From Actinomycetota bacterium (GTDB lineage Bacteria; Actinomycetota; Acidimicrobiia; Acidimicrobiales; AC-14): a stretch of 64,000 nucleotides of DNA. Below are positions 6,083-57,036 of the stretch, piece by piece (positions within the stretch are counted from its first letter, which is position 1; each line of letters starts with the position of its first letter). Location: assembly GCA_040754375.1 (NCBI GenBank), contig JBFMCT010000001.1:34145-98144 (forward strand), read 5' to 3'. The notes under the pieces are model-generated. The model was not told where the DNA came from, ran no database searches, and saw only the letters and a list, made by a program, of their open reading frames with translations. Both the position numbers and the translations under genes were made by a program.

Positions 6083-6166
6083 TCCCGAGGTCCCGCCAAC
6101 CTGACGACAGACGCGCGATATTGGCGCGGTTTGGGCTCATGCGGCGCGGGCTTGAAGGAGAGCGCG

Positions 6167-7129
6167 GTGCGTTGGGTACTGTCACGCCGTGTACCGCCTC
6201 CTCGTGCCGTCGGAACGGGTGGGGGCACGGCGTCCCAGGGCGACGAGGTCGTCCTGATGTGGCACTCGAGCACCGTGTCGGTGGTGCTGATGACCTACGC
6301 CGAGAAGGGCTCGATCCGCGAGACGATCGAGGGCTTCTACGCGACCGGGGTAGTCGACGAGGTCGTGGTCGTGAACAACAACGCCGAGCCCGGCACCCAC
6401 GACCTGGTGGCCGTGACTCGCGCCCGCCAGGTCCACGAGGGACGCCAGGGCTACGGCTGGGCCACCCGCCGAGGCCTGGCCGAAGCCACGGGCGACATCG
6501 TCGTGCTGTGCGAGCCCGACGGTACGTTCCTTCCCGGTGACATCTTCAAGCTGCTCGTCTACAGCGACGACTGCGACGTGGTCCTGGGCACCCGCACGAC
6601 CCGCGAGCTGCTGTGGCACGGCGCCAACATGGGCTGGTTCATGCGCTGGGGCAACTGGGGCCTGGCCAAGCTCATCGAGGTGCTGTTCGACACCAGCCAC
6701 CTGAGCGACGTCGGGTGCACATACCGGCTGCTAAGGCGGGAGGCCCTCGAACAGGTCCGGCACCGCTTCACCGTCGGCGGCGAGCACTTCGGTCCCGAGC
6801 TCATGCTCCTGTGCCTCACGGCCGACCTCCGGGTCGTCGAGGTGCCTGTCAACTACCTGCCCAGGGTGGGCGTCTCCTCGGTCACCGGCGACCTGGGCAA
6901 GGCCGTACGCCTGGGGCTACGCATGGCCGGGTTCATCGTGGCCTTCCGCCTGCGGAGCCTCGGACGTACCCACGGTCACCCGGGCAACCGCCGGATCGAC
7001 CGCGACGCCTGGCGGGTGGTGAGGATCCACGCCAACGGGCTGCTGCCCCACGTCGACGGCCGGGCCAGCGCCCCCGCGGCGGAGGCGGTCGTCGGTGGCC
7101 GGCGGGCCGTGGCCCCGCCCACGGGCTGA
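6167..7129 (+). CDS. Family 2 glycosyltransferase (DPM1-like)
   Basis: A 320-residue GT-A fold glycosyltransferase of family GT2. The catalytic domain starts with VSVVLMTYAE, has the nucleotide-binding region VVVNNN, and CEPDGTF in the position of the DxD-type acidic motif. DVGCTYRLLRRE is typical of dolichol/polyprenyl-phosphate sugar transferases. It probably transfers a sugar from a nucleotide donor to a lipid or glycan acceptor at the inner face of the membrane. The GTG at 6167 is chosen because GAAGGAG lies 6 bases upstream (6154-6160). An ATG at 6257 would drop 30 residues that do not resemble the family. Its stop overlaps the next gene, a multi-membrane-span glycosyltransferase, suggesting that the two work in one envelope glycan or glycolipid pathway. 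Confidence 0.85.
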   Translation: MRWVLSRRVPPPRAVGTGGGTASQGDEVVLMWHSSTVSVVLMTYAEKGSIRETIEGFYATGVVDEVVVVNNNAEPGTHDLVAVTRARQVHEGRQGYGWATRRGLAEATGDIVVLCEPDGTFLPGDIFKLLVYSDDCDVVLGTRTTRELLWHGANMGWFMRWGNWGLAKLIEVLFDTSHLSDVGCTYRLLRREALEQVRHRFTVGGEHFGPELMLLCLTADLRVVEVPVNYLPRVGVSSVTGDLGKAVRLGLRMAGFIVAFRLRSLGRTHGHPGNRRIDRDAWRVVRIHANGLLPHVDGRASAPAAEAVVGGRRAVAPPTG

Positions 7130-8958
7130 CCCTGGACCGCATCGCGCGGGCCGCCCCTCTGGCGGTGGTCGTGGCCGCCTTCGCCGCTTCGGTCGTGCTG
7201 CTGCCGCGCGCCGACGTGCCTATCGGCGACGACTGGGTCTACGCCCGGTCGGTGTGGACGCTGCTCGACGGCGGTGGGCTCGTCATCGAGGACGCATCGG
7301 TGGTCACCCTCGTGGCCCAAGTGGTGTGGGGCTCCCTCTTCGCATGGTTGTGGGAGCCGACGTTCGTGGCCCTGCGGTACTCCACCGCGACGGCCGCGGC
7401 CGGGGGCGCGGTAGCTGTCTACCTGCTGTGCCGCCTCCTCGGGGCGGGACGCAGTTGGGCGGCGGTCGGGGCCGCCTTGTGGTTGTTCAACCCGCTCAAC
7501 TACGTGCTGGCCAACAGCTACATGACCGACTCGACGTTCGCCGCCCTCCTGGCGATCGCGGCCTACTTCTACGTACGAGGGCTAGGAGGGTGGTGCCTAG
7601 GCCCTCCCCCGGCGGCCGAACGCCCCGTTCGCGGCTCGGCGACATCGCAGAGGTACAGGTCCGATGCAGGTCGGCCGCCCCGGCGCGCAGCGCCGAACGC
7701 GAAAGACACCACCCTGCTGGGCGTGGGCGTGGGCGTGGGCTGGGTGGTGGCCGGCTCGGCGGCCTCAGCCGTCGCCTTCCTGGTCCGCCAGCAGGGCCTG
7801 CTCATCCCGCTGGCGGTGCTCGCCTACCTGTGGCTCAGCCGGCGGTCGTGGGGCCGTGCCGGGCGGGCGCTGGTCGTCCCCGTGGCCGCCGTCCCGGCGT
7901 TGACCGCGGCCCTCTACTGGGCGTGGTTGGCGTTGTCCCACGGCGTCCCCGGCGGCCAGCGCATGTTCAGCGACGAGCTGTCGCTGATCTGGCGGGCCCA
8001 GACGCCACGGTTCCTGGGCGAGCTGGCCGCCGTCCAACTGCTCTACGCCGGGCTCTTCGTCCTGCCCGTGGCAGCCGCCGCGGCCCTGGCCGGGCCCCGC
8101 CTGGCCCGTGGCCTGCCACCCCGGGGGCGCCGCTGGCTGATCGTGGTGCTGGGGGTGGTGGCCACCGGTGCGCTGGCCTTGACCGTCACCGGCCGGTACA
8201 TGCCCTATGTGCCTCAGTACCTGGCTTCGTGGGGGCTGGGCCCGGCCGACGTCCAGGGCGGGCGCCCCGAGGTCGTGAGCGGCCTGTGGCTGTGGGTGCT
8301 CACGGCCGTGGTCGTAATGGCCACGGCGGTAGGCGCCGCGCTGGTGGTGCGCCGGCTTGCCGGGCCCGAGGCCCCCGGAGGGCCCGGGGCCGGCTTGTTG
8401 CTGGTGATGCTGGTGGCCCAGGCCGGGGGAGCGGTGCCCGCCTCCCTCCACTTCCAGAACCCGGGCGGGATCATGACGATCACCATGGACCGGTACCTGT
8501 TACCGCTGCTCCCACTGGCCCTGTGCCTGGCCGTGTGGGCCGCCGCCGGCCTGCGGGTGCCCTCTTGGCCGGCATGGGGGCTGGTCGCCGTCCTGGCCGT
8601 GGTGTCGGTGGCCGGGGCGCGGGACCTGCTCGTCCTCCAGCGCACGATCTGGGAGGTGGCCGCGGCCGCCAACCGGGCAGGCGTGGAGGACCGGTTCATG
8701 GACGCCGGCGCCCAGTGGAACGGCGAGCGCCTCCACCGGGACTTCGACGACCTACCGCCGCCCGACCCCGAGCGGGTCTGGTGGCTCAACCTGTTCGCCC
8801 CCCAGACCGACCCCCAGTACGTGGTGTCGACCCTGCCCCTGCCCGGTTACGTCGAGGTCAGCACGACCACCTACCGCACGTGGCTCCCACCCCGGGACAA
8901 CCCCCTGCTGTTCCTCCGCCGCGACGACGTGGCCCCGCGGCCCGGAGCTGCGCCCTAA
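7126..8958 (+). CDS. Polytopic membrane glycosyltransferase (GT39/ArnT-like) with in-frame repeat insertion
   Basis: A protein of about 610 residues with roughly 10-12 membrane segments, resembling lipid-linked sugar transferases of the ArnT/PMT (GT39) type. It has an early acidic pair in a loop (PIGDDW) and the stretch NPLNYVLANSYMTDSTF that recurs in this family. The start is uncertain. There is no ATG or GTG near the 5' end, and CTG at 7126 overlaps the stop of the upstream GT2 gene (CTGA), which would allow coupling. Residues about 153-198 are encoded by a complete 139-bp dispersed element (7582-7720). The frame stays open through it, and homology to membrane segments resumes immediately after (GVGVGVGWVVAG). 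The insert falls in a loop between two predicted membrane segments. Whether the protein is active is unknown. Confidence 0.75.
   Translation: MTLDRIARAAPLAVVVAAFAASVVLLPRADVPIGDDWVYARSVWTLLDGGGLVIEDASVVTLVAQVVWGSLFAWLWEPTFVALRYSTATAAAGGAVAVYLLCRLLGAGRSWAAVGAALWLFNPLNYVLANSYMTDSTFAALLAIAAYFYVRGLGGWCLGPPPAAERPVRGSATSQRYRSDAGRPPRRAAPNAKDTTLLGVGVGVGWVVAGSAASAVAFLVRQQGLLIPLAVLAYLWLSRRSWGRAGRALVVPVAAVPALTAALYWAWLALSHGVPGGQRMFSDELSLIWRAQTPRFLGELAAVQLLYAGLFVLPVAAAAALAGPRLARGLPPRGRRWLIVVLGVVATGALALTVTGRYMPYVPQYLASWGLGPADVQGGRPEVVSGLWLWVLTAVVVMATAVGAALVVRRLAGPEAPGGPGAGLLLVMLVAQAGGAVPASLHFQNPGGIMTITMDRYLLPLLPLALCLAVWAAAGLRVPSWPAWGLVAVLAVVSVAGARDLLVLQRTIWEVAAAANRAGVEDRFMDAGAQWNGERLHRDFDDLPPPDPERVWWLNLFAPQTDPQYVVSTLPLPGYVEVSTTTYRTWLPPRDNPLLFLRRDDVAPRPGAAP
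7582..7720 (+). repeat. 139-bp palindromic dispersed element, copy A (inside a gene)
   Basis: The left end ctaggagggtggtgcct and the right end agacaccaccctgctgg form a 17-bp terminal inverted repeat with 14 matches. An inner inverted pair lies around ggcggccgaac and ggtcggccgcc. The copy is inserted in the membrane glycosyltransferase gene and read in the frame that gives GLGGWCL, AAERPVRGSAT and GRPPRR. No clear target duplication is seen. It has the same length as copies B, C and E. Confidence 0.88.
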
Positions 8959-8959
8959 G

Positions 8960-9098
8960 CCGAGGGACCGATCCCCTTGGCGGTCGGCGCGCCGACCCGC
9001 CGACCGGCCGACCTGGCCCTTGCCTGACCTCTAGGTGGGACCGAGCCCCAGACGGGGCGGTCGGTCGCCCGGGAAGGGCTCGGGCACCCGCCACTTTG
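8960..9098 (-). repeat. Dispersed palindromic element, copy E (decayed)
   Basis: A diverged copy in reverse orientation, starting 2 bases after the stop codon of the membrane glycosyltransferase. The ends are weak (ccgagggaccgatcccc and its partner near 9082-9098), but the interior keeps the element's order. Read on the minus strand in the element frame, it still gives ATDRPVWGS and GAPTAKG without a stop. The length between the aligned ends is again 139 bp. Confidence 0.7.
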
Positions 9099-15797: not shown

Positions 15798-17350
15798 CGG
15801 CCCAGTACCGCCTCGATGTACGGTGCGGGGTCGGCCAGCACGGTGGCCGCGTCGACCGCCATGTCGTAAAGGGGCGCACCGGCCACGGCCACGGCCAGGC
15901 TGGCCACGATCAGCACCACCGTGGGTACTGTCATCATCGGGGGCAACGAGATGCGCCCGGCAGCCGCCACGGTGGCCGTCCCACCCGCCCCGGAGCCGAG
16001 CACGGTACCCGTCCCGGCCGCCCCCGGCCCGCCCGCGCCCGGCCCCCCCTCGCCAGGCTGGCCCCAGAAGGCGGCCGCCCAGATCTTGGTCATGGAGAAC
16101 AGGGTCAGCAGGCTGACAGCCAGGCTCACGGCCACGATCCCGTAGCGCTCGATCTCGACGCCGGCGTTGACGAGGGCCAGCTTGCCCACGAAACCCGACG
16201 ACGGGGGTACCCCGGCCAGGCTCAGGGCGGGCACCATGAACAGGACGGCCAGCAGTGGCGTTCGATGGAGGAGTCCTCCCAGGCGGCTGAGCGCGCCGGT
16301 GCCGGTGGCGTTCTCGATCAGGCCCCCGACCAGGAACATCGTGGTCTTGACGATGATCTGGTGGACCATGAACAGGATCGAGCCGGCCAGCCCGGCCACC
16401 GAGAACAGCCCGACCCCCATGATCATGTAGCCGATCTGGCTCACGATGTGGAAGCTCAGGAGCCGCTTGATGTCGTTCTGGGCGATGGCGCCGAGCACGC
16501 CCACCACCATGGTCAGCCCGGCCAGCACGAGCAGCACCGTCGATGGCCCGCCGTCGGTCGGGAACATGAGGGTCTGGGTGCGGATGATGGCGTACACCCC
16601 GACCTTGGTCAGCAGGCCGGCGAAGATGGCGGTGACGGGCGTCGGGGCCGTCGGGTAGGAGTCCGGCAGCCAGAAGAACAGCGGGAAGATGGCAGCCTTC
16701 ACCCCGAACACCACCAGCAGGAGCAGGCCCAGGCCGTGGCGCACGGGCTGGGGCAGCTCGCCGATGCGGCCGGCCAGGTCGGCCATGTTGACCGTCCCGG
16801 TGGCCGCGTAGATGAGGCCCACGGCCGTCACGAAGAACGTCGACGCCACCAGGCTGATGACCACGTAGGTCATGCCCGTACGCACCTGGTCGCGCCCCCC
16901 GCCCAGGGTGATCAGGACATAGCTGGCGCTGAGCATGACCTCGAAGGCGACGAACAGGTTGAACAGGTCGCCGGCCAGGAACGAGGCCGACACCCCGGCG
17001 GCCAGGATCAGGTAGACGGGGTGGAAGAAGAGCCGGTCGTCGGCTGTGCGGGGGCTGCCGATGGAGTACACCAGCACGGCCAGCACCACCAGGGCGGAGA
17101 CGACCAGCATCAGGGCGGCGAACATGTCGGCGACCAACGAGATGCCGATGGGCGCGGGCCACGCCCCCACCTGGATGGCGACGGGGCCCTGGTCGTTGAC
17201 CTGGACCAGGACGGCGACGGTCAGGGCCAGGCAGGCCACCAGGACCGAAACGCTCAGCGCCCGCTGGGCCTGGGGCCGGCGGTGCAGGACCATCGACAGA
17301 GCGGCCGCCAGCAGGGGCAGGGCCACGGGCAGGGTCACGAGGGACCTCAC
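15794..17350 (-). CDS. mnhD: Mrp/Mnh antiporter subunit D (operon 1)
   Basis: A 518-residue protein with about 14 membrane segments, homologous to the proton-pumping ND4/NuoM/NuoN subunits of complex I. Characteristic stretches are FVAFEVMLSASYVLITLGGGRDQVRTG, with the conserved membrane glutamate, IFPLFFWLPDSYPTAPTPVTAIFAGLLTKVG and the lysine-bearing KRLLSFHIVSQIGYM. It forms one of the two proton-translocating channels of the antiporter. The GTG start overlaps mnhC (GTGA). A Gly/Ala-rich cytoplasmic loop near residue 430-460 is longer than usual. The closest relative in the window is the mnhD of operon 2. Confidence 0.94.
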   Translation of the reverse strand: MRSLVTLPVALPLLAAALSMVLHRRPQAQRALSVSVLVACLALTVAVLVQVNDQGPVAIQVGAWPAPIGISLVADMFAALMLVVSALVVLAVLVYSIGSPRTADDRLFFHPVYLILAAGVSASFLAGDLFNLFVAFEVMLSASYVLITLGGGRDQVRTGMTYVVISLVASTFFVTAVGLIYAATGTVNMADLAGRIGELPQPVRHGLGLLLLVVFGVKAAIFPLFFWLPDSYPTAPTPVTAIFAGLLTKVGVYAIIRTQTLMFPTDGGPSTVLLVLAGLTMVVGVLGAIAQNDIKRLLSFHIVSQIGYMIMGVGLFSVAGLAGSILFMVHQIIVKTTMFLVGGLIENATGTGALSRLGGLLHRTPLLAVLFMVPALSLAGVPPSSGFVGKLALVNAGVEIERYGIVAVSLAVSLLTLFSMTKIWAAAFWGQPGEGGPGAGGPGAAGTGTVLGSGAGGTATVAAAGRISLPPMMTVPTVVLIVASLAVAVAGAPLYDMAVDAATVLADPAPYIEAVLGR

Positions 17351-17715
17351 CGCACGTCCTCCGGGTCGGGCCGGCTGCGGGCGATGCGCCGGTCCTCCAG
17401 GTCGTCCTCGACCTCGTCGTCATGGCGGAGCAGCCAGCTCCGGTAGGCCAGCGTCAGCAAGAAGGCGCTCACGCCGAAAGCGATGACGATGGCCGTCAGG
17501 GCGAGGGCCTGGGGGAGGGGGTCGGCGAAGCCAGCCGTCTCGCCTCCCGAGATGGGCGCCCGCCCGGCCCGGCCCCCGGCCATGAGCAGCACGAGGTTGG
17601 CGCCGTGGCCCATCATGGCCAGCCCGATGACGATCTGGGTCAGGTTGCGCTGCAGGAGCAGGTAGGTGCCCACGGCGTAGAGCGTCCCCACGACCAGGGC
17701 GAGCACGACGATCAT
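17347..17715 (-). CDS. mnhC: Mrp/Mnh antiporter subunit C (operon 1)
   Basis: A 122-residue NuoK-like protein with three membrane segments. The core is [29 protein letters not shown] and DPLPQALALTAIVIAFGVSAFLL, which carry the conserved glycine and acidic pattern of MnhC. A cytoplasmic acidic/basic tail follows (DDEVEDDLEDRRIA). The ATG at 17715 overlaps the mnhB stop (ATGA). It is the small partner of the D subunit in the antiporter membrane arm. Confidence 0.94.
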   Translation of the reverse strand: MIVVLALVVGTLYAVGTYLLLQRNLTQIVIGLAMMGHGANLVLLMAGGRAGRAPISGGETAGFADPLPQALALTAIVIAFGVSAFLLTLAYRSWLLRHDDEVEDDLEDRRIARSRPDPEDVR

Positions 17716-18194
17716 GCCCGCTCGCCCTTCTCGGCGCCCAGGGTGGTGAGGATGCCGAGGACGAGGCCCACCACGACCAGGTAGACGCCGATGTCGAAGG
17801 GCAGGGCGGAGGTGGCCTTGACCTCGCCCAGCAGCGGCACGTCGAGGGTGACCTTGCCGCTCTCGAGGAACTGCCCGCCCACGACCAGAGCGGCCAGGCC
17901 GGTCCCGACGGCCATGGTCAGGCCGGCGCCCAGCAGGGCGGTGGCCGACACGGGCATCAGCCGACCGAGGTCGTCCGTGCCACCCTCCACGTAACGCAGC
18001 ACGAAGGCGGCGCCCGCCACCAGGCCGCCCACGAACCCACCCCCAGGGGCGTTGTGGCCCGCGAACAGCAGGAACAGCGAGAACAGCAGGGCGGTGTGGA
18101 AGATGGCCCCCACGCAGGTGGCCAGGATGAGCGACGGCTCCTCCTCGCCGGGCCCGACGTGGTGGGGCCCGACCTTGCCGGGGCGGGCGGTCAC
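17712..18194 (-). CDS. mnhB: Mrp/Mnh antiporter subunit B (operon 1)
   Basis: A 160-residue MnhB with four membrane segments. The family signature [22 protein letters not shown] is present, with the usual PSLIL start of the domain. The start is GTG at 18194, overlapping the mnhA stop by 4 bases. In operon 2 of this window the same domain is instead fused to the end of MnhA, so this separate form is the more usual arrangement. Confidence 0.93.
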   Translation of the reverse strand: MTARPGKVGPHHVGPGEEEPSLILATCVGAIFHTALLFSLFLLFAGHNAPGGGFVGGLVAGAAFVLRYVEGGTDDLGRLMPVSATALLGAGLTMAVGTGLAALVVGGQFLESGKVTLDVPLLGEVKATSALPFDIGVYLVVVGLVLGILTTLGAEKGERA

Positions 18195-20491
18195 GGGGCC
18201 TCCTCCCGTTGCCGGCCGGCCATGACCAGGCTGGCTATGCCCAGGGCGGCCACGACCAGCACGGTGATCTCGCCCATGGTGTCCATGCCCCGGAAGTCGA
18301 CGAGGATGACGTTGACCACGTTGCGCCCGCCGCCCTCGGGCAGGGCCCGGGCCAGGTACTCCTCAGACACCGGGGGGGCCGTGCGCGACCCGGCGGCCAC
18401 CATCACGAAGAAGGCCACGAACACCCCCACGCCGGCCGAGAGCACGATGCGCCCCCGCTCCCGCAGCCGCCAGGGCTTGGGATCGAAGCGGTCGGGCAGG
18501 TGGCGCAGGACGAGCACGAAGATGACCAGGGCGAGGGTCTCGATGAGCAACTGGGTGAGGGCCAGGTCGGGGGCCCCCTGGATGAGGAAGAGGACGGCCA
18601 CGCCGTAGCCCACCCCGCCCAGGAAGAGCACGGCCGCGAAGCGGCCCCGGGCCGTGGCCGCCCCGGCCGCGGCCACCAGGACAAGGGCGGCGACCGCCAC
18701 CTGGAGGGGCGACTCCGCGAAGGTGAGCCCGTCGGGGAGCGAGGCCCCCCGGGCCAGGGCCACGGCCGGCAGGGCGACCATGGTCAGCAGGATGATGGCC
18801 AGGTAGGTGGGCAAGGAACCGTTCTGGACCACGCCGGTGAGGCGGGTGGCCCCGAGCACCAGGTTGCGGACCGAGCCTTCGTAGGCCCCCTGGGCGGTGG
18901 GCACGGCTGGTAGGTGGTCCTGGGCCCTCTCGACCCTCTCGCGGGCGAGGAACAGGGCCACGCCGAGGGCGATGGTGACCCCCGAGAGGGCCAGGGCGGG
19001 CGTGAACCCGTGCCACAGCACGAGGTGCACGTCGACCTCGGCCAGCAGTGACGCGGCCACGGCCTCGGCCAGCCCGGTCACCAGGACGGGGGCGAACCCG
19101 AAGAGCACCGTCAGGCCGGCCAGCAGGGCGGCGGGCGCCAGGAACTGCCACTTGGGCAGGGGCACCTCGGGCCCGATCCGAGGCCGGCCCGACGGTGGCT
19201 TGTCGGCGAAGGTCCCCCACAAGAAGCGGGCCCCGTAGGCGAACGTCAGGACCGACCCGGCCACGACTCCTATCAGGGTCAGCAGGCCGCCCAGGCCGTG
19301 ACCGTGGACGAGGGCCTCGTAAGCCGCCTCCTTGGTGACGAACCCCAGCAGAGGCGGTAGGCCGGCCATCGACGCCGCGCCCACGGCGGCTACCGCGAAC
19401 GTTGCGGGCATGCGCCGGCCGAGGCCCGACAGCTCCCGCAGGTCGCGGGTGTGGGCCTGGTGGTCGACGATCCCCACGACCAGGAACAGGGCGGCTTTGA
19501 AGAGGCTGTGGGCCAGCAGGAGGGCGCCGCCCGCGAACGACAGCTCGGGGTAGCCGGCACCCACCAGCACGACCAGGAACCCCAGCTGGCTGATCGTGCC
19601 GTAGGCCAGCACCAGCTTGATGTCGTGTTGGCGCAGGGCGCGGTAGCCCCCGACGAGCATGGTCGTGAGCCCCACCGAGATGACCACCGGCCGCCAGTAG
19701 CCGACGCCGGCCGCGAAAGCGGGGGCCAGCCGGGCGATCAGGTACACGCCCGCCTTGACCATGGTGGCCGAGTGCAGGTAGGCGCTCACGGGGGTCGGGG
19801 CGGCCATGGCGCCGGGCAGCCAGGGGTGGAACGGGGCCTGGGCCGACTTGGTGAACGCCCCCAGCAGGATCATGGCCAGGCCCCAGCTCACGGCCGTGCC
19901 CGACGGGGGGTCGGCCAGGATGGCCGACAAGGAGTAGGTGCCGGCCGCCTGGCCGAGCACCACGAAGCCCCCGAGCATGGCCAGCCCGCCCGCCCCGGTG
20001 ACCAGCATGGCGTGGAGGGCGGCCGCCCGGGCCGACGGCTTGCTGTCCTCGAAGCCGATCAGCAGGTAGGAGGTCACCGAGGTGAGCTCCCAGAAGACGT
20101 AGATGGCCAGCAGGTTGTCGGACAGGACGATCCCGAGCATGGCCCCGGCGAAGGCCGTCAGCGTGCCCGCGAACCGCCCCAGGCCGGGCCGCTCGGAGAA
20201 GTAGTACCGGCTGTACACCATCACGAGCACGCCGACTCCCGAGATCAGGCCGGCCATGAGCAGGGAGAACCCGTCCAAGCGCAGGTCGAGCGACAGCCCC
20301 AGGCCGGGGACCCACGAGAGCGGCTGGTCGACGGCGGTGCCGGCGACGACGCCCGACCACTGGGCCATCACCCAGGCGAACGTGGCCGCCGGGGCGATGG
20401 CGCACAGCCAGAAGACCTTCCGCCCGAGCCGGGCCCCGGCGGCCGGGGCGACCACGGCGATGGCGGCGTGGAGCGCGAGGAGGAGGACCAC
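18191..20491 (-). CDS. mnhA: Mrp/Mnh antiporter subunit A (operon 1)
   Basis: A 766-residue subunit with about 20 membrane segments, related to complex I NuoL. Residues 1-500 hold the proton-channel core: WELTSVTSYLLIGFED with the membrane glutamate, [33 protein letters not shown] and the discontinuous helix around HDIKLVLAYGTISQLGF. The C-terminal part (about 610-760) holds the DUF4040/MbhD-like and MbhE-like segments ([35 protein letters not shown]). It starts operon 1, with GTG at 20491. A promoter should lie in the 243-bp gap shared with the divergent cysteine-desulfurase-like gene, but no convincing box was found for this direction. Confidence 0.94.
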   Translation of the reverse strand: MVLLLALHAAIAVVAPAAGARLGRKVFWLCAIAPAATFAWVMAQWSGVVAGTAVDQPLSWVPGLGLSLDLRLDGFSLLMAGLISGVGVLVMVYSRYYFSERPGLGRFAGTLTAFAGAMLGIVLSDNLLAIYVFWELTSVTSYLLIGFEDSKPSARAAALHAMLVTGAGGLAMLGGFVVLGQAAGTYSLSAILADPPSGTAVSWGLAMILLGAFTKSAQAPFHPWLPGAMAAPTPVSAYLHSATMVKAGVYLIARLAPAFAAGVGYWRPVVISVGLTTMLVGGYRALRQHDIKLVLAYGTISQLGFLVVLVGAGYPELSFAGGALLLAHSLFKAALFLVVGIVDHQAHTRDLRELSGLGRRMPATFAVAAVGAASMAGLPPLLGFVTKEAAYEALVHGHGLGGLLTLIGVVAGSVLTFAYGARFLWGTFADKPPSGRPRIGPEVPLPKWQFLAPAALLAGLTVLFGFAPVLVTGLAEAVAASLLAEVDVHLVLWHGFTPALALSGVTIALGVALFLARERVERAQDHLPAVPTAQGAYEGSVRNLVLGATRLTGVVQNGSLPTYLAIILLTMVALPAVALARGASLPDGLTFAESPLQVAVAALVLVAAAGAATARGRFAAVLFLGGVGYGVAVLFLIQGAPDLALTQLLIETLALVIFVLVLRHLPDRFDPKPWRLRERGRIVLSAGVGVFVAFFVMVAAGSRTAPPVSEEYLARALPEGGGRNVVNVILVDFRGMDTMGEITVLVVAALGIASLVMAGRQREEAP

Positions 20492-20734: not shown

Positions 20735-22291
20735 GTGCCAGAGAACGCCGTGGGGGGTACGCCAGGAGACGGGTGCCTAGACCCTTCCTCGGCCGCCGAC
20801 CGCCCTGCCGGCGGTGAAGCCGATGTGCCAAGCCGCTGGTCAGGGCCAGGTCGGCCGCCTCGGCGCGGAGCGCCGACCGCGGAAGGCACCAGCCTCGTGG
20901 GGGCCACCGAACTGGTGGGCGACGGCCTCGAGGTCCCGTGCGTGGACGGACAGTCCCGCCGCTACCTCAACCTCGACGCGGCGGCGTCCACCAATGCCCT
21001 GGTGGCGGTGGCCGACCGGGTGGCCGAGTTCCTCCCCTGGTACTCCAGTGTCCACCGGGGGGCCGGCTTCAAGTCGAGGCGGGCCACCGACGCCTACGAG
21101 GCCGCCCGCCGGGCGGCACTGGCCTTCGCGGGCCGCGGCCACGGCGGGACCGGCGAGGGCACGGGCGACCACATAGCCATCATCTGCCGGAACACGACCG
21201 AGGCGGTCAACCATCTGGCCTACCGGTTGAGGCTGGCTCCCGACGACGTGGTGGTGACGACGGTCGTCGAGCACCACGCCAACCTGCTGCCCTGGGCCCG
21301 GCTGTGCCAGCGGCGGTTCGTCGAATGCGGGCCCGACGGCACGTTCGAGGCCGGGGCCGTGGCCGAGGCCATCGATGGCGGCCCCCGCCCCCGGCTGGTG
21401 GCGGTCACCGGCGCGTCCAACGTGACCGGCTGGGCTCCGCCCGTGGACGAGATCGTGGCCCTGGCCCACGAGCGCGGTGTGCCCGTGCTGGTCGACGGCG
21501 CCCAGCTGGCCCCCCACCGGCCCTTGCCGGCGTCGGCCGACTTCGTGGCCTGGAGCGGCCACAAGATGTATGCCCCCTTCGGGGCGGGGGTGCTGGCCGG
21601 GCCGCGGGACGCGTTCACCGAAGGGGACCCGTTCCTGGCCGGTGGGGGCGCGGTCGACCTCGTCGACCTCGACGAGGTGGCCTGGACCGACCCCCCCGAG
21701 CGGGAGGAGGCCGGTTCGCCCAACGTGATCGGGGCCGTGGCCCTGCACGCCGCCATAGACGAGATGGGCCGGTTCGGCTGGGACGCAGTGGTGGCGCACG
21801 ACGACCGGCTGGCCCGGCGGCTACGGGCCGGGCTGGCGGCCATCGACGGCGTTCGCCTGCTCGGGCCCGGCCTGGACGTGCCCACCCTGCCGCTGGCCAC
21901 GTTCACCGTCGAGGGGGCCCACCACGCCCTGGTGGCGGCCCGGCTCAGCGCCGAGTACGGCATCGGTGTACGCCACGGCTGCTTCTGCGCCCACCCGTAC
22001 CTGCTGCGCCTGCTGGGGCTGACGGCCGCCGAGACGGCCGAGTACCGGGACGCCGTGCTGCGCCACGACCGCCGCAACGTTCCCGGGGCGGTGCGGGCCA
22101 GCGCCGGGATCAACACGACGGCGGCCGACATCGACCGCCTGCTCTCGGCGGTGGCCGAGATCGCCGGCGGCGGCCCCCCACCCCTGCCCTACGTGCAGGA
22201 TCCCCGCACCGGCGACTTCTGGCCCGAGGGCGAGTCGCTCGGATGGTCGTCCGCCGACCGGGCCGTCGGCGCCTCCTGCGCCCGCGGCTGA
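20735..22291 (+). CDS. Class V aminotransferase, cysteine desulfurase (SufS)-like, with in-frame repeat insertion
   Basis: A 518-residue PLP enzyme of the class V fold. Family landmarks are EHHANLLPW (179-187), D254 and Q257 in VDGAQ, the PLP lysine K277 in SGHKMYAPFG, and a Cys-containing loop VRHGCFCAH (C416, C418) where SufS-type desulfurases carry the catalytic cysteine. The likely reaction is desulfuration or lyase chemistry on cysteine or a related amino acid, but no suf genes are adjacent. Residues about 10-55 are encoded by repeat copy B (20762-20900), read in the same frame as copy A. The family fold begins right after it (LVGDGLEVPCVDG). GTG 20735 is supported by a TAACCT box 6 bases upstream. 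A start downstream of the repeat cannot be excluded. Confidence 0.85.
   Translation: MPENAVGGTPGDGCLDPSSAADRPAGGEADVPSRWSGPGRPPRRGAPTAEGTSLVGATELVGDGLEVPCVDGQSRRYLNLDAAASTNALVAVADRVAEFLPWYSSVHRGAGFKSRRATDAYEAARRAALAFAGRGHGGTGEGTGDHIAIICRNTTEAVNHLAYRLRLAPDDVVVTTVVEHHANLLPWARLCQRRFVECGPDGTFEAGAVAEAIDGGPRPRLVAVTGASNVTGWAPPVDEIVALAHERGVPVLVDGAQLAPHRPLPASADFVAWSGHKMYAPFGAGVLAGPRDAFTEGDPFLAGGGAVDLVDLDEVAWTDPPEREEAGSPNVIGAVALHAAIDEMGRFGWDAVVAHDDRLARRLRAGLAAIDGVRLLGPGLDVPTLPLATFTVEGAHHALVAARLSAEYGIGVRHGCFCAHPYLLRLLGLTAAETAEYRDAVLRHDRRNVPGAVRASAGINTTAADIDRLLSAVAEIAGGGPPPLPYVQDPRTGDFWPEGESLGWSSADRAVGASCARG
20762..20900 (+). repeat. 139-bp palindromic dispersed element, copy B (inside a gene)
   Basis: The ends ccaggagacgggtgcct and aggcaccagcctcgtgg form a 17-bp terminal inverted repeat with 14 matches. 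It lies inside the 5' part of the cysteine-desulfurase-like gene. The element frame is used, giving GCLDPSSAADRP and GRPPRR, matching the peptide of copy A. The interior is more diverged than copies A, C and D are from one another. Confidence 0.85.
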
Positions 22292-34651: not shown

Positions 34652-37465
34652 GTGACGGGTGGGCCGGGATGGGTGAGCACCCTGCTGGCGCTGCACCTGG
34701 CCGCCGCCTTGGCTGCCGTGCCCCTGGTGCGCCGGGCCGGGCCACGAGGCCTGCTCGTCCTGGCCGCCGTGCCGGGCGCGGTCCTGCTCTGGGTGGCGAC
34801 CACGGCCCCGCGGATCCTCGACGGTGCTCCCGTGGAGGAACGAATCGGCTGGGCACCCGACCTGGGGTTCGAGATCGCGGTCCGGGTCGACTCGTTCTCG
34901 CTGGTCATGGTGCTGCTCGTATCTGGGATCGGCGCGCTGATCTTCGCCTACGGCTTCGCCTACTTCGGCGAGCGGCCTGACCTCGGCCGCCTGGCCAGCC
35001 TCTTGATGGGGTTCTCGGGAGCGATGCTGGGCCTCGTCGTCACCGACAACCTGCTGGCCATCTTCCTGTTCTGGGAGGCGACCTCGATCACCTCCTACTT
35101 GCTGATCGGCAACGACGACCGGTCGGCCGCCGCCCGCTCCGCCGCATTGCGAGCACTACTCACCACCGGGGTCGGGGGCCTCGCCATGCTCGCGGGCTTC
35201 GTCCTGCTCGCCCAGGAAGCCGGGTCGTGGTCGCTGACCCAGATCCTTGCCGACCCCCCTCGCGGGGCAGTGGTGGAGGTCGCGCTGGTGCTGGTCCTGC
35301 TCGGGGCATTCACCAAGTCGGCTCAGGTGCCATTCCACTTCTGGCTCCCAGGGGCCATGGCCGCCCCCACCCCGGTCAGCGCCTACCTCCACTCCGCGAC
35401 CATGGTCAAAGCTGGCGTGTACCTCATCGCCAGGTTCGCGCCTCCCTTCGCCGAGGTTGGCGTGTGGAGGCCAATGGTGATCTCGGTCGGTCTTGCCACC
35501 ATGCTGCTCGGGGGTTGGCGAGCGCTGGCCCAGCACGACCTGAAGCTGCTGCTGGCGCACGGCACCACGAGCCAACTGGGCCTCCTGGTCGTACTGCTGG
35601 GTGCCGGTTACCCCGAGGCCACGCTGGCCGGCGTGGTTCTGCTGCTGGCCCACGGCGCGTACAAGGCGGCGTTGTTCATGGTCGTCGGCATCATCGAGAA
35701 GGCAGCTGGTACCCGCGACATCCGGAAGCTGACCGGCCTCCACCGGCCGCTGCGGACGACCCTACTGGTGGCGGCCGTCGCCGCCGGGTCGATGGCGGGT
35801 GTCCCACCCATGCTGGGGTTCGTCGCCAAGGAGGCGACCTATGAGGCGGCGCTCGGCTCGGGCCTCGCAATGGCAGGCCTCGTGGTCGCGCTGCTGGTGG
35901 CCGGTTCGGCCCTGACCTTCGCCTACAGCGCCCGCGCTTTGTGGGGGGCGTTCGCCCACAAGGGGCCCCTGGACCTCGAGGACGGGACGAGCGTCGGCCC
36001 CGTCTCGGGGGCCGGCCTGCGGCTGGTCCTGCCCGCCGCAGTGCTCGCTGCGTTGGCCGTCGCGCTCGGTGCTGCGCCGACGCTTGTCGAGGCCATCGTC
36101 GTCAGCGGTGCCCAGGCGATCGACCCGGACGTCCCCCCAGCCCATCTCAGGCTGTGGCATGGCTTCAACGCTCCTCTCACGCTCTCCGCCATCACGATCG
36201 GAGCCGGAGCCCTGCTGTGGGTGGCTAGGCATCGACTCGAGCGGCTGCAGCAGATGGTCCACGTCCCGCCCTCAGGTGCCCGCACCTTCGACCTGCTTCT
36301 GCGCAACACAGTCCGCGCCGCCGACCGCGTGACCGGCGCCCTCCAGACGGGATCGTTGCCCGTCTACCTCCTGATCATCCTCACCACGGTGCTCGTCGTG
36401 CCGGGCACGTTCCTGCTGGTCAGCCTCGACCTCCCGTCCGAACTGCTCCTTGTCGACCGGCCGGTACAGGTGGCAGTCGCCGCCGCCATGGTGGTGGCCA
36501 CCGTGGGGGCGATCCGTACCAGGCACCGCCTGGGGGCGGTGATGGCTGTCGGCGCCGTTGGGTACGGGGTCGCCGTGCTCTTCATCATCCAGGGCGCCCC
36601 CGACTTGGCCCTGACCCAGCTGATGATCGAGACCCTCCTGCTGGTGCTGTTCGTGCTCGTGCTCCGGCACCTGCCGAGGCGGTTCACCAGCGCCCAGACA
36701 GCGCTACCGACCGCTCCTCGAGCCGTCCTGGCGGTGCTGGTCGGTCTGTTCGCGGCGGTCTTCGCGATGGTGGCGGTGGGGGCGCGGCCCGACCTTGAGC
36801 CTGTCTCGGTCGAGTACCTGGCCCGCTCGCTCCCGGAGGCCGACGGGCGCAACATCGTGAACACGATCCTCGTCGACTTCCGGGCCTTCGACACGCTAGG
36901 GGAGATCGTCGTGCTGACTGTCGCCGGTCTCGGGGTGATCGGCCTCGTACGCGCCGCCAGCCGAGAGCGAGTCCCCCAGCCAACGCGCCCGGGGCCAATT
37001 CGCCAAGAACCATCGCTGATCCTCGACCGGGCTGTGAGGGCCCTGTTCCATACGGTCATCACGTTCTCGGTCGTGCTCCTGCTGATCGGGCACAACGAGC
37101 CGGGAGGCGGGTTCATCGGCGGCCTGGTGGCCGGCGCTGCTTTCATGTTGGTATACCTGGCCGGCGGTACCGGCCGGCTGCAGCGGGCGGAGCCCCTCAA
37201 CCCCGAGTTGTTCCTGGGCCTTGGGATCAGCCTGGCCGCCTTGGCTGGGCTCTTCGGTTGGCTCTCGGGGGGGGAGTTCCTCGAGGCGTCCCACATCTCG
37301 TTCGACGTTCCGCTACTGGGAGGGGTCAAGCTGGCGACTGTGCTGCTATTCGACGGGGGAGTCTACTTGGTGGTGGTCGGCTTGGTTGTGGCCCTGCTCC
37401 GCTCGCTCGGCCAAGAGGACGTAAGGGGAGGTTCGCCCCAGGCGTCGAGTGGGGCACCGCGGTGA
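34652..37465 (+). CDS. mnhA: Mrp/Mnh antiporter subunits A and B fused (operon 2)
   Basis: A 937-residue fusion. Residues 1 to about 765 are MnhA, with the NuoL-like core ([66 protein letters not shown]) and the DUF4040/MbhE-like C-terminal parts ([34 protein letters not shown]). Residues about 788-937 are MnhB ([35 protein letters not shown]). It opens the second Mrp operon. GTG 34652 is used, although an upstream ribosome site is weak. MnhA and MnhB are separate genes in operon 1. The codon choice is less GC-biased than in operon 1, suggesting a different origin rather than recent duplication. Confidence 0.92.
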
Positions 37466-37851
37466 TCGTCGCGTTGGTGCTCCTGGTGGGGGTGCTCTTC
37501 GCCGGAGGCACCTACCTGCTGCTGCAGCGCACGCTGACCCGCATCATCCTCGGGCTGTCCCTCTACGGGCACGCGGTGAACGTGCTGCTGCTGCTCAGCG
37601 GTGGCCGAGCCGGTCAGCCTCCGCTAGTCACCGACGGCCGCCCGACAGCCATGGCCGACCCCCTGCCCCAGGCCATGGCCCTAACCGCCATCGTTATCAC
37701 GTTCGGCATCTCCGCCTTCCTCCTCGCTCTGGCCTACCGGAGCTGGACCCTCACCGGTGGGGACGAGGCCGAGGACGATATCGAGGACCGGCGGATCGCG
37801 CGACAGGTCCGGGAGGAGGAGCTCATGCTGCTCGAGGAGGACCGCCTGTGA
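37462..37851 (+). CDS. mnhC: Mrp/Mnh antiporter subunit C (operon 2)
   Basis: A 129-residue NuoK-like subunit with three membrane segments: [29 protein letters not shown] and [30 protein letters not shown]. The cytoplasmic tail is acidic and ends in LMLLEEDRL. The GTG at 37462 overlaps the stop of the MnhA-MnhB gene (GTGA). Unlike operon 1, where mnhC overlaps mnhD, here a dispersed element and about 80 further bases separate them. Confidence 0.93.
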
Positions 37852-37859
37852 AAGGGGGC

Positions 37860-37998
37860 CTAGGAGGGTGGTGTCTAGACCCTCCCCAGGCGGCCGACCG
37901 CCCCGTTCGCGGCTCGGCGACACTGCAAAGGTGCTGTTCAGGGGAAGGTCGGGCGCCTCGGCGCTCAGCGCAGAACGCGAAAGACACCAGCCTCCCAG
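37860..37998 (+). repeat. 139-bp palindromic dispersed element, copy C
   Basis: ctaggagggtggtgtct (37860-37876) and agacaccagcctcccag (37982-37998) form the 17-bp imperfect terminal inverted repeat. The inner pair lies near ggcggccgacc and ggtcgggcgcc. It starts 9 bases after the mnhC stop codon and splits mnhC from mnhD. The element frame is fully open (GLGGWCL, AADRPVRGSAT), although nothing suggests translation here. It is the cleanest copy, and close to copy D. Confidence 0.9.
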
Positions 37999-38074
37999 CC
38001 AGGCTGGGGGCCCGCACCAGAGCCATGTGGCGCGGGCCTGCCCCGGCCCCACTTGCGATGGGTGATGAGGGTAG

Positions 38075-39571
38075 TTGAGGGTCCTCGTCCCCCTCCTCGT
38101 CGTGATGCCCTTGCTGGGGGCCGGCCTCTCCATGGCGCTGTGGCGCTTCGTGCGCATCCAGCAGGTGCTCGGGGTCGCCCTGCTGTCGGGCGGGCTGGCG
38201 GCCTCGCTCGCACTGCTTGCCCACGTGGTGGCCACCGGCCCAGTGGTCGTGCACCTCGGGGGCTGGCGCGCGCCCGTCGGTATCACGCTCGTGGCCGACG
38301 TGCTGTCAGTACTGCTCCTCTCGGTCGCCCTGGCCACACTGCTGGCCGTGTTCGTGTTCGCCATCGGCCAACCCCGCGCCGACAAGAGCGCGTTCTACTT
38401 CCACGCCCTCTACCTCGTCCTCGCCGCTGGCGTATCGGCCTCGTTCCTCACTGGGGACCTCTTCAACCTGTTCGTCGCCTTTGAGATCATGCTCGTGGCC
38501 AGCTACGTGCTGATCACCCTCGGAGGTCGACGTGAGCAGGTCCGCTCGGGGATCACCTACGTCGTCATCAACCTCCTCGCGTCCACCCTCCTCATCACGA
38601 CGATCGGTCTGATCTACGCGGCGACAGGCTCGGTGAACATGGCCGACGTGGCTGTACGTCTGGCCGAGGTCCCGGAGGGAGTCCGGAGGGCCCTCGGCGC
38701 GATGCTCCTGGTCACGTTCGGCATCAAAGCGGCGATCTTCCCCTTGTTCTTCTGGTTGCCAGACTCCTACCCGACAGCTCCTGCGCCGGTGACTGCGGTG
38801 TTCGCTGGCTTGCTGACCAAGATCGGCGTCTACGCCATCATCCGGACCCAGACCCTGTTGTTCCCCGGCGACGGGCCGTCGCCGCTCCTGCTGGCGGCCG
38901 CGGCCTCGACCATGGTCGTTGGTGTCCTTGGCGCCATCGCGCAAGACGACATGAAACGCATCCTGAGCTTCCACATCGTCAGCCAGATCGGCTACATGCT
39001 GTTCGGGCTGGGCCTCTACAGCGTGGCCGGCCTGGGAGCCGCGATCCTGTTCATCGTGCACCAGATCCCGGTGAAGACCGCGCTGTTCCTCGTGAACGGC
39101 CTGGTCGAGACCCTCACCGGGACCGCTGCTCTGCACCGGCTCGGGGGGCTGGTGCGGCGGACCCCGTTGACTGCAGCGTTGTTCATGCTGGCCGCTCTCA
39201 GCCTTGCCGGGATCCCACCCTTCTCAGGCTTCTTCGGCAAGTTGGCCCTCCTCGACGCCGGCTTGGCGGCGCGGGCCTGGACAGTCACCGGCATCAGCCT
39301 GGCCGTGAGCGTCCTAACCCTCTACTCGATGACGAAGATCTGGTCGAACGTCTTCTGGGGTGAGCCGGCTGAGCTGCCCCCGCTGGCGGTGGCCGCCGGC
39401 GAGGGGCCGTTGCGGGCACCGCGGTTGATGAACGCGGCGACTATCGGGCTGGTGGCCCTCACGTTGGCCATTGCCGTGCTGGCCCAACCCGTCTGGGAGT
39501 TGAGCGAGCGGGCAGCCCGCGACATTCTCGACCCCGCTGGGGTCTATCTCCGTGCGGTCCTGGGCCCATGA
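38075..39571 (+). CDS. mnhD: Mrp/Mnh antiporter subunit D (operon 2)
   Basis: A 498-residue proton-channel subunit related to NuoM/NuoN, with about 14 membrane segments. It shows FVAFEIMLVASYVLITLGGRREQVRSG, IFPLFFWLPDSYPTAPAPVTAVFAGLLTKIG and KRILSFHIVSQIGYML, closely parallel to the operon 1 protein. The best start is TTG at 38075, which gives RVLVPLLVVMPLLG. No ATG or GTG fits, and the ribosome site is poor. That may be a consequence of the repeat insertion, which removed the usual overlap with mnhC. Confidence 0.92.
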   Translation: MRVLVPLLVVMPLLGAGLSMALWRFVRIQQVLGVALLSGGLAASLALLAHVVATGPVVVHLGGWRAPVGITLVADVLSVLLLSVALATLLAVFVFAIGQPRADKSAFYFHALYLVLAAGVSASFLTGDLFNLFVAFEIMLVASYVLITLGGRREQVRSGITYVVINLLASTLLITTIGLIYAATGSVNMADVAVRLAEVPEGVRRALGAMLLVTFGIKAAIFPLFFWLPDSYPTAPAPVTAVFAGLLTKIGVYAIIRTQTLLFPGDGPSPLLLAAAASTMVVGVLGAIAQDDMKRILSFHIVSQIGYMLFGLGLYSVAGLGAAILFIVHQIPVKTALFLVNGLVETLTGTAALHRLGGLVRRTPLTAALFMLAALSLAGIPPFSGFFGKLALLDAGLAARAWTVTGISLAVSVLTLYSMTKIWSNVFWGEPAELPPLAVAAGEGPLRAPRLMNAATIGLVALTLAIAVLAQPVWELSERAARDILDPAGVYLRAVLGP

Positions 39572-54881: not shown

Positions 54882-57035
54882 GTGCAGGTCACGGACGCCA
54901 CCGGCCGCGTTCGGGAACGCTGGGGAGCGGCGACCGTTCTCGACGTCTCCGACGTTTCGCGCGACGACGGAGTGAGGCTGGCCGTGCTGATCGGCATGGT
55001 CGCCGGCTTGGGCGCGCTCCTGGGCGCGTTCGTGAGCACCAGCGGGTTCGTCGGGTCCGACTTCTTCAGCTTCCGCGACGCCCAGGAGGGCCTGTCGCTG
55101 GGGTTCCTGACCCGGCCCGTGTTCGACCACTTCGTGCCCGGCCACCGCCTCGGTTTCTGGGCGGTGGGGGCCATCTCGCCCTTCGACTTCGGCCTGACCA
55201 CGGCCGTGGTCGTCGCCGTGTTCATGGCCACCCTGCTGGTCTTCCATCGCCTCATGGCCGAACTGTTCCGCCCCGGCCCCGGGCCCATGCTCCTCACCCT
55301 GTTCTACGGGGCGTCAGCCGTTCACGTGGGGACGGGCCAGTGGTGGTCGGCGGCGTTGAGCCGTATGCCCTCGATGCTTTTCGTGCTCCTCATGTTCCTC
55401 ACCTACCTGCGATGGCACCGGTCGGGCAACCGGACGGCGCTGGCCGGCTCGGTGCTTTCCCTGGCGGCCGCCCTCTCCTTCTCGGAGGACGCGGCCGTGG
55501 CCCTGGTCGTGCTCGTCGCCCTCCGGGTGCTCCTGGTGGACAGCGCCACCCCGGTGATGACCGCGGCCCGGGCGGCGCTGAGCGAGTGGCGGGTGTGGAT
55601 GCTCTACCTGGCTCCCATCCTGGTCAGCTTCATCGGCGTGACGGCCCAGACGACCGCCGCAGGCGGGGCGTCGCCCTTGGGCAATGCCGGCCGTTACCTG
55701 GGGGCGGCCTGGTTCCACGGGTTCACCCCCGCGGTGTTCGGCCAGTACGTCAACCACGGCCCGCTCACGGGCGTCGAGATGGTCATCGTGGTGGCCAGCC
55801 AGGCTGCGCTGGCCGCCCTGGTGGCTTGGACGGTTCGGCGGCGGAAGGTGGCGGGGCGGGGGTGGTTGTTCTTCGCCGTCGGCTTCGCCGTGACCCAGTT
55901 GCCGGTGGCCCTGGTCCGCACGGTCATATTCACGCCCGAGCTGGTGGCCCACCAGTACCGCTACTACTCCCAGACCATCGCCTACTTCGCCATCGCCCTC
56001 GGCTTCGCCTTTCTCCCGGTGCGCAACGGCGGACCGTCGGGGGCCGCCGTCGCGCCGGGCCCGGCCGGCGAGGACACCGGCGAGGACACCGGCGAGGACA
56101 CCGGCGAGGACACCGGCGAGGACACCGGCGAGGACACCGGCGAGGACACCGGCGAGGAGCTCGATCCCGAGCTCGACGCCGAGCTCGACGCCGAGCCTGA
56201 CGACGGTACGGGCGCTGGCGCGGGCGGCGGCGGGCGCCGGGCTCGGGCTGGTGCCCCGAGGTGGGCGCTGGTCGCGGGGCTGGCCACGGTGGCCACGCTC
56301 TACGTGGCGGCGTCGGCGTGGATGGGGGCCAGGGTCATGCACGAGTTCGTCGGGGGCCGGTCGGGCCGCTACCTGGACGCCCTACGGGCCGACGTCTCCC
56401 TGGTGACGTCCCAGCCCGGCCGGGCGGTGGTCATGGACGGCGACCTGCCCGGGGCCATGATCGACCGCATCTACGCCCCGGCCAACCGCCTCAGCTTCCT
56501 GCTGCCCCTGCTGGGCTACGACGACATCATCGGCACCTCGGGCGACCGCGTGCACCGGGTGCTGGCCAACGGGCGCCTCGAGCAGGTGGCGTTCACCCCC
56601 CTGGTGGGCGGGCCGGCCACCGAGCTGCTGGCCTCCGGGCGGCTGGCCACGATGCCCGCGGAGGCGGCCAACGTCTCGGAAGGGGCGGTGTGCGTGCAGT
56701 CAGGCGAGAAGGCCCCGGCCATCGGGTTGTTCCCCCTCGTCCCGGTGGGCGACGGCGAGTGGTACCTGAGGATGAACTACACGGTGAGCACGTCGGTGCC
56801 CGGCCTGGAAGGGCCGCGGGTCCTGCCCGGGCGGGTCCTGGTGAACCACGGGGAGGGTTTCGTCGACGCCGCCGACCCCCGCATCGGCTTCGTGGCCGGC
56901 CGCTCGGAAGCGGTCGTCTCCTTGGGCCGGGCCGGGTTCACCACGGTGGTCGTGATCCCGCCGTCGCGCTCGCGCCTGTGCATCAGCGAGGCCACCATCG
57001 CCCTGATCGTGCCCCAGGGGCGGGTGCGGGGCTGA
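54882..57035 (+). CDS. Large polytopic membrane protein with GEDT tandem repeat
   Basis: A 717-residue protein with about 10-12 membrane segments in residues 25-385 and one more near 460-480, then an extracytoplasmic domain of about 235 residues. The general layout (SFRDAQEG, FDHFVPGHRLGFW, HRSGNRTALAGSVLSLAAALSFSEDA) resembles uncharacterised actinobacterial envelope proteins related to PMT-type glycosyltransferases. No exact family was recognised. Between the last grouped segment and the next lies a loop with seven GEDT repeats and an acidic stretch (ELDPELDAELDAEPDD). The GTG start follows TACGCT at 8 bases. It is divergent from the glycosyltransferase operon and probably works in the same envelope pathway. 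Confidence 0.8.
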   Translation: MQVTDATGRVRERWGAATVLDVSDVSRDDGVRLAVLIGMVAGLGALLGAFVSTSGFVGSDFFSFRDAQEGLSLGFLTRPVFDHFVPGHRLGFWAVGAISPFDFGLTTAVVVAVFMATLLVFHRLMAELFRPGPGPMLLTLFYGASAVHVGTGQWWSAALSRMPSMLFVLLMFLTYLRWHRSGNRTALAGSVLSLAAALSFSEDAAVALVVLVALRVLLVDSATPVMTAARAALSEWRVWMLYLAPILVSFIGVTAQTTAAGGASPLGNAGRYLGAAWFHGFTPAVFGQYVNHGPLTGVEMVIVVASQAALAALVAWTVRRRKVAGRGWLFFAVGFAVTQLPVALVRTVIFTPELVAHQYRYYSQTIAYFAIALGFAFLPVRNGGPSGAAVAPGPAGEDTGEDTGEDTGEDTGEDTGEDTGEDTGEELDPELDAELDAEPDDGTGAGAGGGGRRARAGAPRWALVAGLATVATLYVAASAWMGARVMHEFVGGRSGRYLDALRADVSLVTSQPGRAVVMDGDLPGAMIDRIYAPANRLSFLLPLLGYDDIIGTSGDRVHRVLANGRLEQVAFTPLVGGPATELLASGRLATMPAEAANVSEGAVCVQSGEKAPAIGLFPLVPVGDGEWYLRMNYTVSTSVPGLEGPRVLPGRVLVNHGEGFVDAADPRIGFVAGRSEAVVSLGRAGFTTVVVIPPSRSRLCISEATIALIVPQGRVRG
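56067..56150 (+). repeat. 12-bp tandem repeat (7 perfect units)
   Basis: Seven exact copies of ggcgaggacacc, plus a partial eighth (to 56158), encode GEDT repeats in a cytoplasmic or external loop of the membrane protein. Units are a multiple of 3, so gain or loss of units keeps the frame. Confidence 0.97.
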
Positions 57036-57036
57036 C

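Follow-up and report, generated by a model that had tools for sequence, protein, structure and literature searches.

In-frame copies of a 139-bp repeat, probably an IS1182-type MITE, in protein-coding genes of a GC-rich actinobacterium

A complete repeat element lies in the frame of a membrane protein gene

Within a 64,000-nucleotide stretch of an Actinomycetota genome (referred to here as the window), the reading frame of a membrane protein gene runs through a whole copy of a dispersed repeat. The copy occupies positions 7582 to 7720 on the forward strand (139 nucleotides [nt]), corresponds to positions 1 to 139 of the family consensus, and contains no stop in the host frame. It begins with CTAG (7582 to 7585), probably the left copy of a duplicated target, and ends with CTGG (7717 to 7720), which we interpret as the decayed right copy. 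The GC contents of the three codon positions are of the coding type on both sides of the element (0.62/0.52/0.91 upstream and 0.74/0.57/0.97 downstream), in agreement with the original prediction that the gene frame passes through the entire element. The predicted in-frame addition was also correct, but not its size of ∼46 residues: 139 nt minus the 4-bp CTAG duplication gives a net gain of 135 nt, or 45 codons. Likewise, the frame assigned to the gene (7126 to 8958) is right except for its start, given that position 7126 holds a CTG rather than ATG, GTG, or TTG and that the first standard in-frame start is a GTG at 7165. The host gene is thus given here as 7165 to 8958 on the forward strand, although translation could also begin at a CTG, at 7126 or 7132.

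The membrane protein has matches at an E value of ≤1e-12 in only 2 of the 297 other sampled genomes of the order, namely, G027 and G233 (G000 denotes this genome, other G numbers denote related genomes, and L numbers denote loci). Both orthologues align with its residues up to 154 and from 205 onward, 15 to 18 nt separating the two pieces, and the insertion site, which reads YVRG-[insert]-GVGVGVGWVVAGSAA here, reads YVRGFAREGAGRWVVAGSAA in G027. The element is therefore absent, exactly, from both of the orthologues, as had been foreseen. Directly upstream of the membrane protein gene lies a GT2 glycosyltransferase gene (6131 to 7129, forward strand; PF00535), and in G027, too, the membrane protein gene is immediately preceded by the end of a GT2-like frame, a shared gene order that supports orthology. 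The earlier description of the host as a membrane glycosyltransferase rests on this neighbor and on a Pfam PMT match below the threshold (E value of 0.011; 15.7 bits versus a cutoff of 22.7 bits), and we refer to the gene as probably GT-C/PMT-like. The insert (residues 153 to 198) follows the hydrophobic stretch TFAALLAIAAYFY and stands just before a hydrophobic peak at residues 202 to 220, supporting the proposed location between membrane segments. In a charge-hydropathy plot, the composition of the insert places it on the side of disorder. A structure prediction of the membrane protein alone, made with no alignment, reached a mean pLDDT of 44 and was set aside as too poor.

The element belongs to a short family with CTAG ends

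The element is a member of a 139-bp, non-autonomous repeat family that contains no transposase gene and is present in dozens of copies in the 3.5-Mb genome. A blastn search with the window element gave 37 matches in its own genome (best nonself E value of 2e-41), and a 139-position profile derived from 23 copies gave 49 matches at an E value of ≤0.01 (about 45 in a rounder count), with fragments and two antisense self-matches among the 49. Within the window, a blind search for repeats placed family copies at 7579, 20759, and 37857 and an inverted one at 57036. The window copies outside the membrane protein gene comprise a diverged copy of 139 nt that precedes a SufS-like gene (L029; 20762 to 20900, forward strand), a 139-nt copy between genes (L006; 37860 to 37998, forward strand), and a 138-nt copy with perfect CTAG ends, also between genes (L011; 57037 to 57174, reverse strand). 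An old, diverged copy directly downstream of the membrane protein gene (8965 to 9096, reverse strand) was matched by the profile (G000:C1:43109-43240; E value of 2.8e-12).

Oriented copies have in common sharp 17-bp terminal inverted repeats (CTAGGAGGCTGGTGTCT and AGACACCAGCCTCCTAG). Among 25 fairly complete copies the length ranges from 133 to 145 nt, with 139 nt (8 copies) and 138 nt (7 copies) being the commonest values. Most intact copies carry CTAG at both ends and have no further flanking bases in common, which fits a 4-bp target duplication. In the DNA repair protein RadA, one of the hosts described below, relatives have a single Leu at the insertion site, and the protein of this genome has one Leu on either side of the insert. 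We infer that CTAG was duplicated as the target at each site. Of 397 genomes of the order, this one alone has the exact-end pattern, and the profile, used with stricter filters, found the family in 3 of the 397, showing that it is nearly confined to this genome.

Two further arrangements were observed. At G000:C26:47292-47607 (L002 and L022), two head-to-tail copies, one of them rearranged, have a CTAG in common and look like the product of one copy inserting into an end of its neighbor. At G000:C35:11383-11461 (L026), a short form of about 79 nt has an internal deletion and both ends intact.

The ends of the element are those of IS1182-family insertion sequences

In a scan of the genome collection with the 3′ end motif of the element, which gave 10 loci, relatives of one transposase lay beside the motif in 6. 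Locus L068:2908-4914, in another genome, is a complete insertion sequence (IS) that is bounded on either side by the ends of the element, CTAG included in each case, and that encodes an IS1182-family transposase (NF033551; 318.6 bits versus a cutoff of 270 bits). Given that the ends of the element also bound IS1182-family insertion sequences, the 139-bp element is best read, on its sequence, as an IS1182-type MITE, which would be mobilized in trans. In this genome itself, IS1182 was seen only as subthreshold fragments, with no intact IS carrying the ends of the element, and three of its loci scanned for these ends held the known MITE copy alone. Short-read assemblies often lose such elements.

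The 4-bp duplication has parallels within the IS1182 family, of which ISPse1 is described with 16/16 inverted repeats and a 4-bp direct repeat (PMC3281130). Elements of the L068 and ISPse1 type encode a transposase, whereas the 139-bp element encodes none, and the terminal sequence of the IS1182-family element at L068 is the same as that of the 139-bp element. In Methanosarcina acetivorans, IS1182-related MITEs of 160 and 169 bp, listed together with ISMac2, occur in 14 and 7 copies, and one of them has 4-bp direct repeats (PMC3852290). These are likewise short and attributed to the IS1182 family, but their host is an archaeon, and the accessible part of PMC3852290 describes no translated insertions, the words “coding” and “in-frame” being absent from that text.

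The element is found in frame in four different genes

The gene context was examined at 46 loci (30 + 16), with L031, L165, and L169 being from relatives, and with genes called by a simple codon-usage caller. The element lies in frame in four genes, breaks one gene, and is intergenic or at gene ends at most of the other loci. The four in-frame copies add about 43 to 45 residues to each predicted protein, and their frames differ: two are +0, one is +2, and one is antisense. L026, L029, and L197 were also considered as in-frame copies and were rejected for want of a coding score on one flank (5, 1, and −2, respectively).

One of these hosts is radA (G000:C2), where the copy follows RAERL and adds 43 residues. 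Forty relatives were searched, and in all 36 with a strong match, the alignment with the RadA of this genome breaks between query residues 135 and 177. The multiple alignment took 27 of these 36, leaving out seven plus L124 (G015) and L133 (G007), and the segment is absent from all 27: two residues stand there in 26 relatives and seven in the remaining one. No second radA was seen in this genome, and its RadA scores above the curated RadA cutoff (461.5 versus 403 bits). RadA shows no accelerated evolution, with a terminal branch of 0.31 versus 0.37 for the family member G003 and a similar mean identity to 19 outgroups (0.592 versus 0.579 for G003). The radA gene amounts to a natural experiment in the tolerance of a conserved ATPase domain for 43 additional residues.

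A class I methyltransferase gene (G000:C57) has an in-frame copy, read in a different element frame from that in radA, that is absent from all eight aligned orthologues, and the alignment with a paralogue at G000:C63 also breaks at the element. In the fourth host, a large protein with no Pfam match (G000:C13), an old antisense copy begins with LGGWCLSR, and its 43 residues are absent from all three aligned orthologues. This protein evolves at a normal rate, its identity to the orthologues being 0.63 to 0.68 versus 0.68 to 0.71 among them.

The gene-breaking copy is 138 nt long (L007; G000:C2:95617-95752) and splits a DUF222/HNH gene out of frame. Since the main 138-nt group has a one-base deletion other than the one in this copy, the gene may have been broken after the insertion rather than by it. 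This copy is located between two IS1182-like transposase fragments of opposite orientation (C2:94510-94692 and C2:96637-96996). Other copies lie just upstream of an mshA-like gene (L003), of prfA (L016), and of the SufS-like gene of the window (20762 to 20900), close enough to affect the leaders of the downstream genes. The product of the gene at L003 resembles the mycothiol protein MshA and scores below the MshA family cutoff; together with the named records in which the ends of the element recur, this gene indicates an actinobacterial host.

The CTAG target limits the reading phase and can supply stop codons

In coding DNA, two readings of CTAG are possible, CTA|G and NCT|AG, the third phase, C|TAG, being barred because TAG is a stop. 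Exactly the four frames that are thereby permitted (two phases in both orientations) are open in the consensus element. However, all four are also open in 40% of simulated interiors, so that composition alone can account for this and a special openness of the consensus is not significant. Since the openness is partly compositional, the phase rule accounts for the tolerance of insertions but does not show that they were selected for. Selection for coding is also opposed by the recent 138-nt group, whose copies are not frame neutral.

At L005, L010, L017, L018, and L025 and at L031 (G003), the terminal CTAG of the element, intact or decayed, forms the end of a called flanking gene. At L017 and L031, the CTAG at the element end serves as the stop of both convergent neighbors. 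As CTAG contains a stop on both strands, an insertion there leaves both genes whole. The Pfam domains of the scanned genes at L005, L017, L018, and L031 run to or near their C-terminal ends, and for this reason the docked stops at these loci look like natural ones. A bolder interpretation is that CTAG targeting makes the element intrinsically compatible with genes and that the family has been molded toward adding loops to proteins or docking on stop codons, which we regard as doubtful. If it were true, duplication of the target would preserve a stop on one or both strands, and the family would steadily supply new protein segments in a GC-rich lineage.

The insertions are probably tolerated as protein loops

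Taken together, we think it very probable that an IS1182-type MITE inserted at CTAG, in frame, lengthening the predicted proteins, and was tolerated there as a loop. The target would be duplicated on insertion, so that a 139-nt copy contributes a net 135 nt, a multiple of three. Insertion into a gene would then add ∼45 proline- and arginine-rich residues to the translated product with no truncation, because the consensus is open in the permitted frames of both orientations. Copies would persist where an extra, presumably unstructured loop is tolerated, as in the membrane protein, RadA, the methyltransferase, and the large protein.

The insertion could also be real in a membrane protein gene that is a decaying pseudogene with its frame still unbroken, perhaps together with the methyltransferase gene. 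The membrane protein gene indeed lacks a standard start codon at the orthologous position, its product is slightly less identical to the orthologues (0.42 and 0.38) than these are to each other (0.48), and the methyltransferase has the paralogue at G000:C63, in which the element alignment is absent. We nevertheless consider such decay unlikely, since the membrane protein frame is open and flanked by coding-type GC despite six substitutions in its element copy that are found in no other aligned copy, and since the evolutionary rates of RadA and the large protein are normal. In the membrane protein gene, a stop would result from about 2.7% of random changes, so that the absence of stops is a weak indication of selection on its frame.

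It is much less probable still that expression of the genes involves removal or skipping of the element, by RNA processing or by ribosome bypassing at a hairpin, leaving a mature protein with no insert. An intact copy has the potential for a strong, long hairpin as DNA (z score of −5.7), as this reading would favor, but the window copy folded as RNA is no better than its shuffles (z score of −0.84), and an Rfam search of the window gave no match. Moreover, all four intragenic copies are open and have net lengths that are multiples of three, neither of which skipping would need; the second point is only suggestive, as the net length is a multiple of three in 12 of the 25 fairly complete copies anyway. 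That the segment is an ordinary lineage-specific insertion or domain with its own function, a notion favored by its in-frame state alone, can be practically dismissed, given that the same DNA is found in unrelated genes in differing frames and orientations and also between genes and that the aligned relatives of all four hosts have no such segment.

Comparison with known in-frame elements

The best-known cases of selfish DNA in frame within genes come from Rickettsia and Wolbachia, and weak selection in small populations could account for them. A search of the literature on IS1182 with MITEs and on MITEs in actinobacteria or Acidimicrobi- returned no title describing this element, which is not proof of absence.

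Rickettsia palindromic elements (RPEs), of about 150 bp, are described as lying in frame in unrelated genes and lengthening their proteins (PMC10969869). Like the 139-bp element, they are palindromic repeats in frame in several unrelated genes, but they form ten families in AT-rich intracellular bacteria, whereas here a single family occupies a GC-rich actinobacterium. The 139-bp element differs further in its CTAG target and in ends that connect it with IS1182. Its likeness to the RPEs is one of behavior. Wolbachia palindromic elements (WPEs) offer a second comparison, with WPE-like sequences in frame in addA, addB, and priA (PMC4224334). Their presence in recombination genes parallels the insertion in radA in a different host group, and no transposon partner or target is named in the accessible part of PMC4224334. 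By analogy, the 139-bp element would work as RPEs and WPEs do, adding a defined transposon partner family, a target rule, and an unusual host. Given the CTAG target rule, in-frame survival is easy, and its occurrence in a 3.5-Mb GC-rich actinobacterium suggests that such insertions can be sought wherever CTAG-targeting elements meet GC-rich genes.

Other repeats in the window

Two further repeats were observed in the window. Positions 16160 to 19879 and 35285 to 39262 are 72 to 81% identical in inverted orientation and are probably paralogous gene clusters, and positions 56053 to 56182 hold a tandem 12-bp repeat with units CCGGCGAGGACA.
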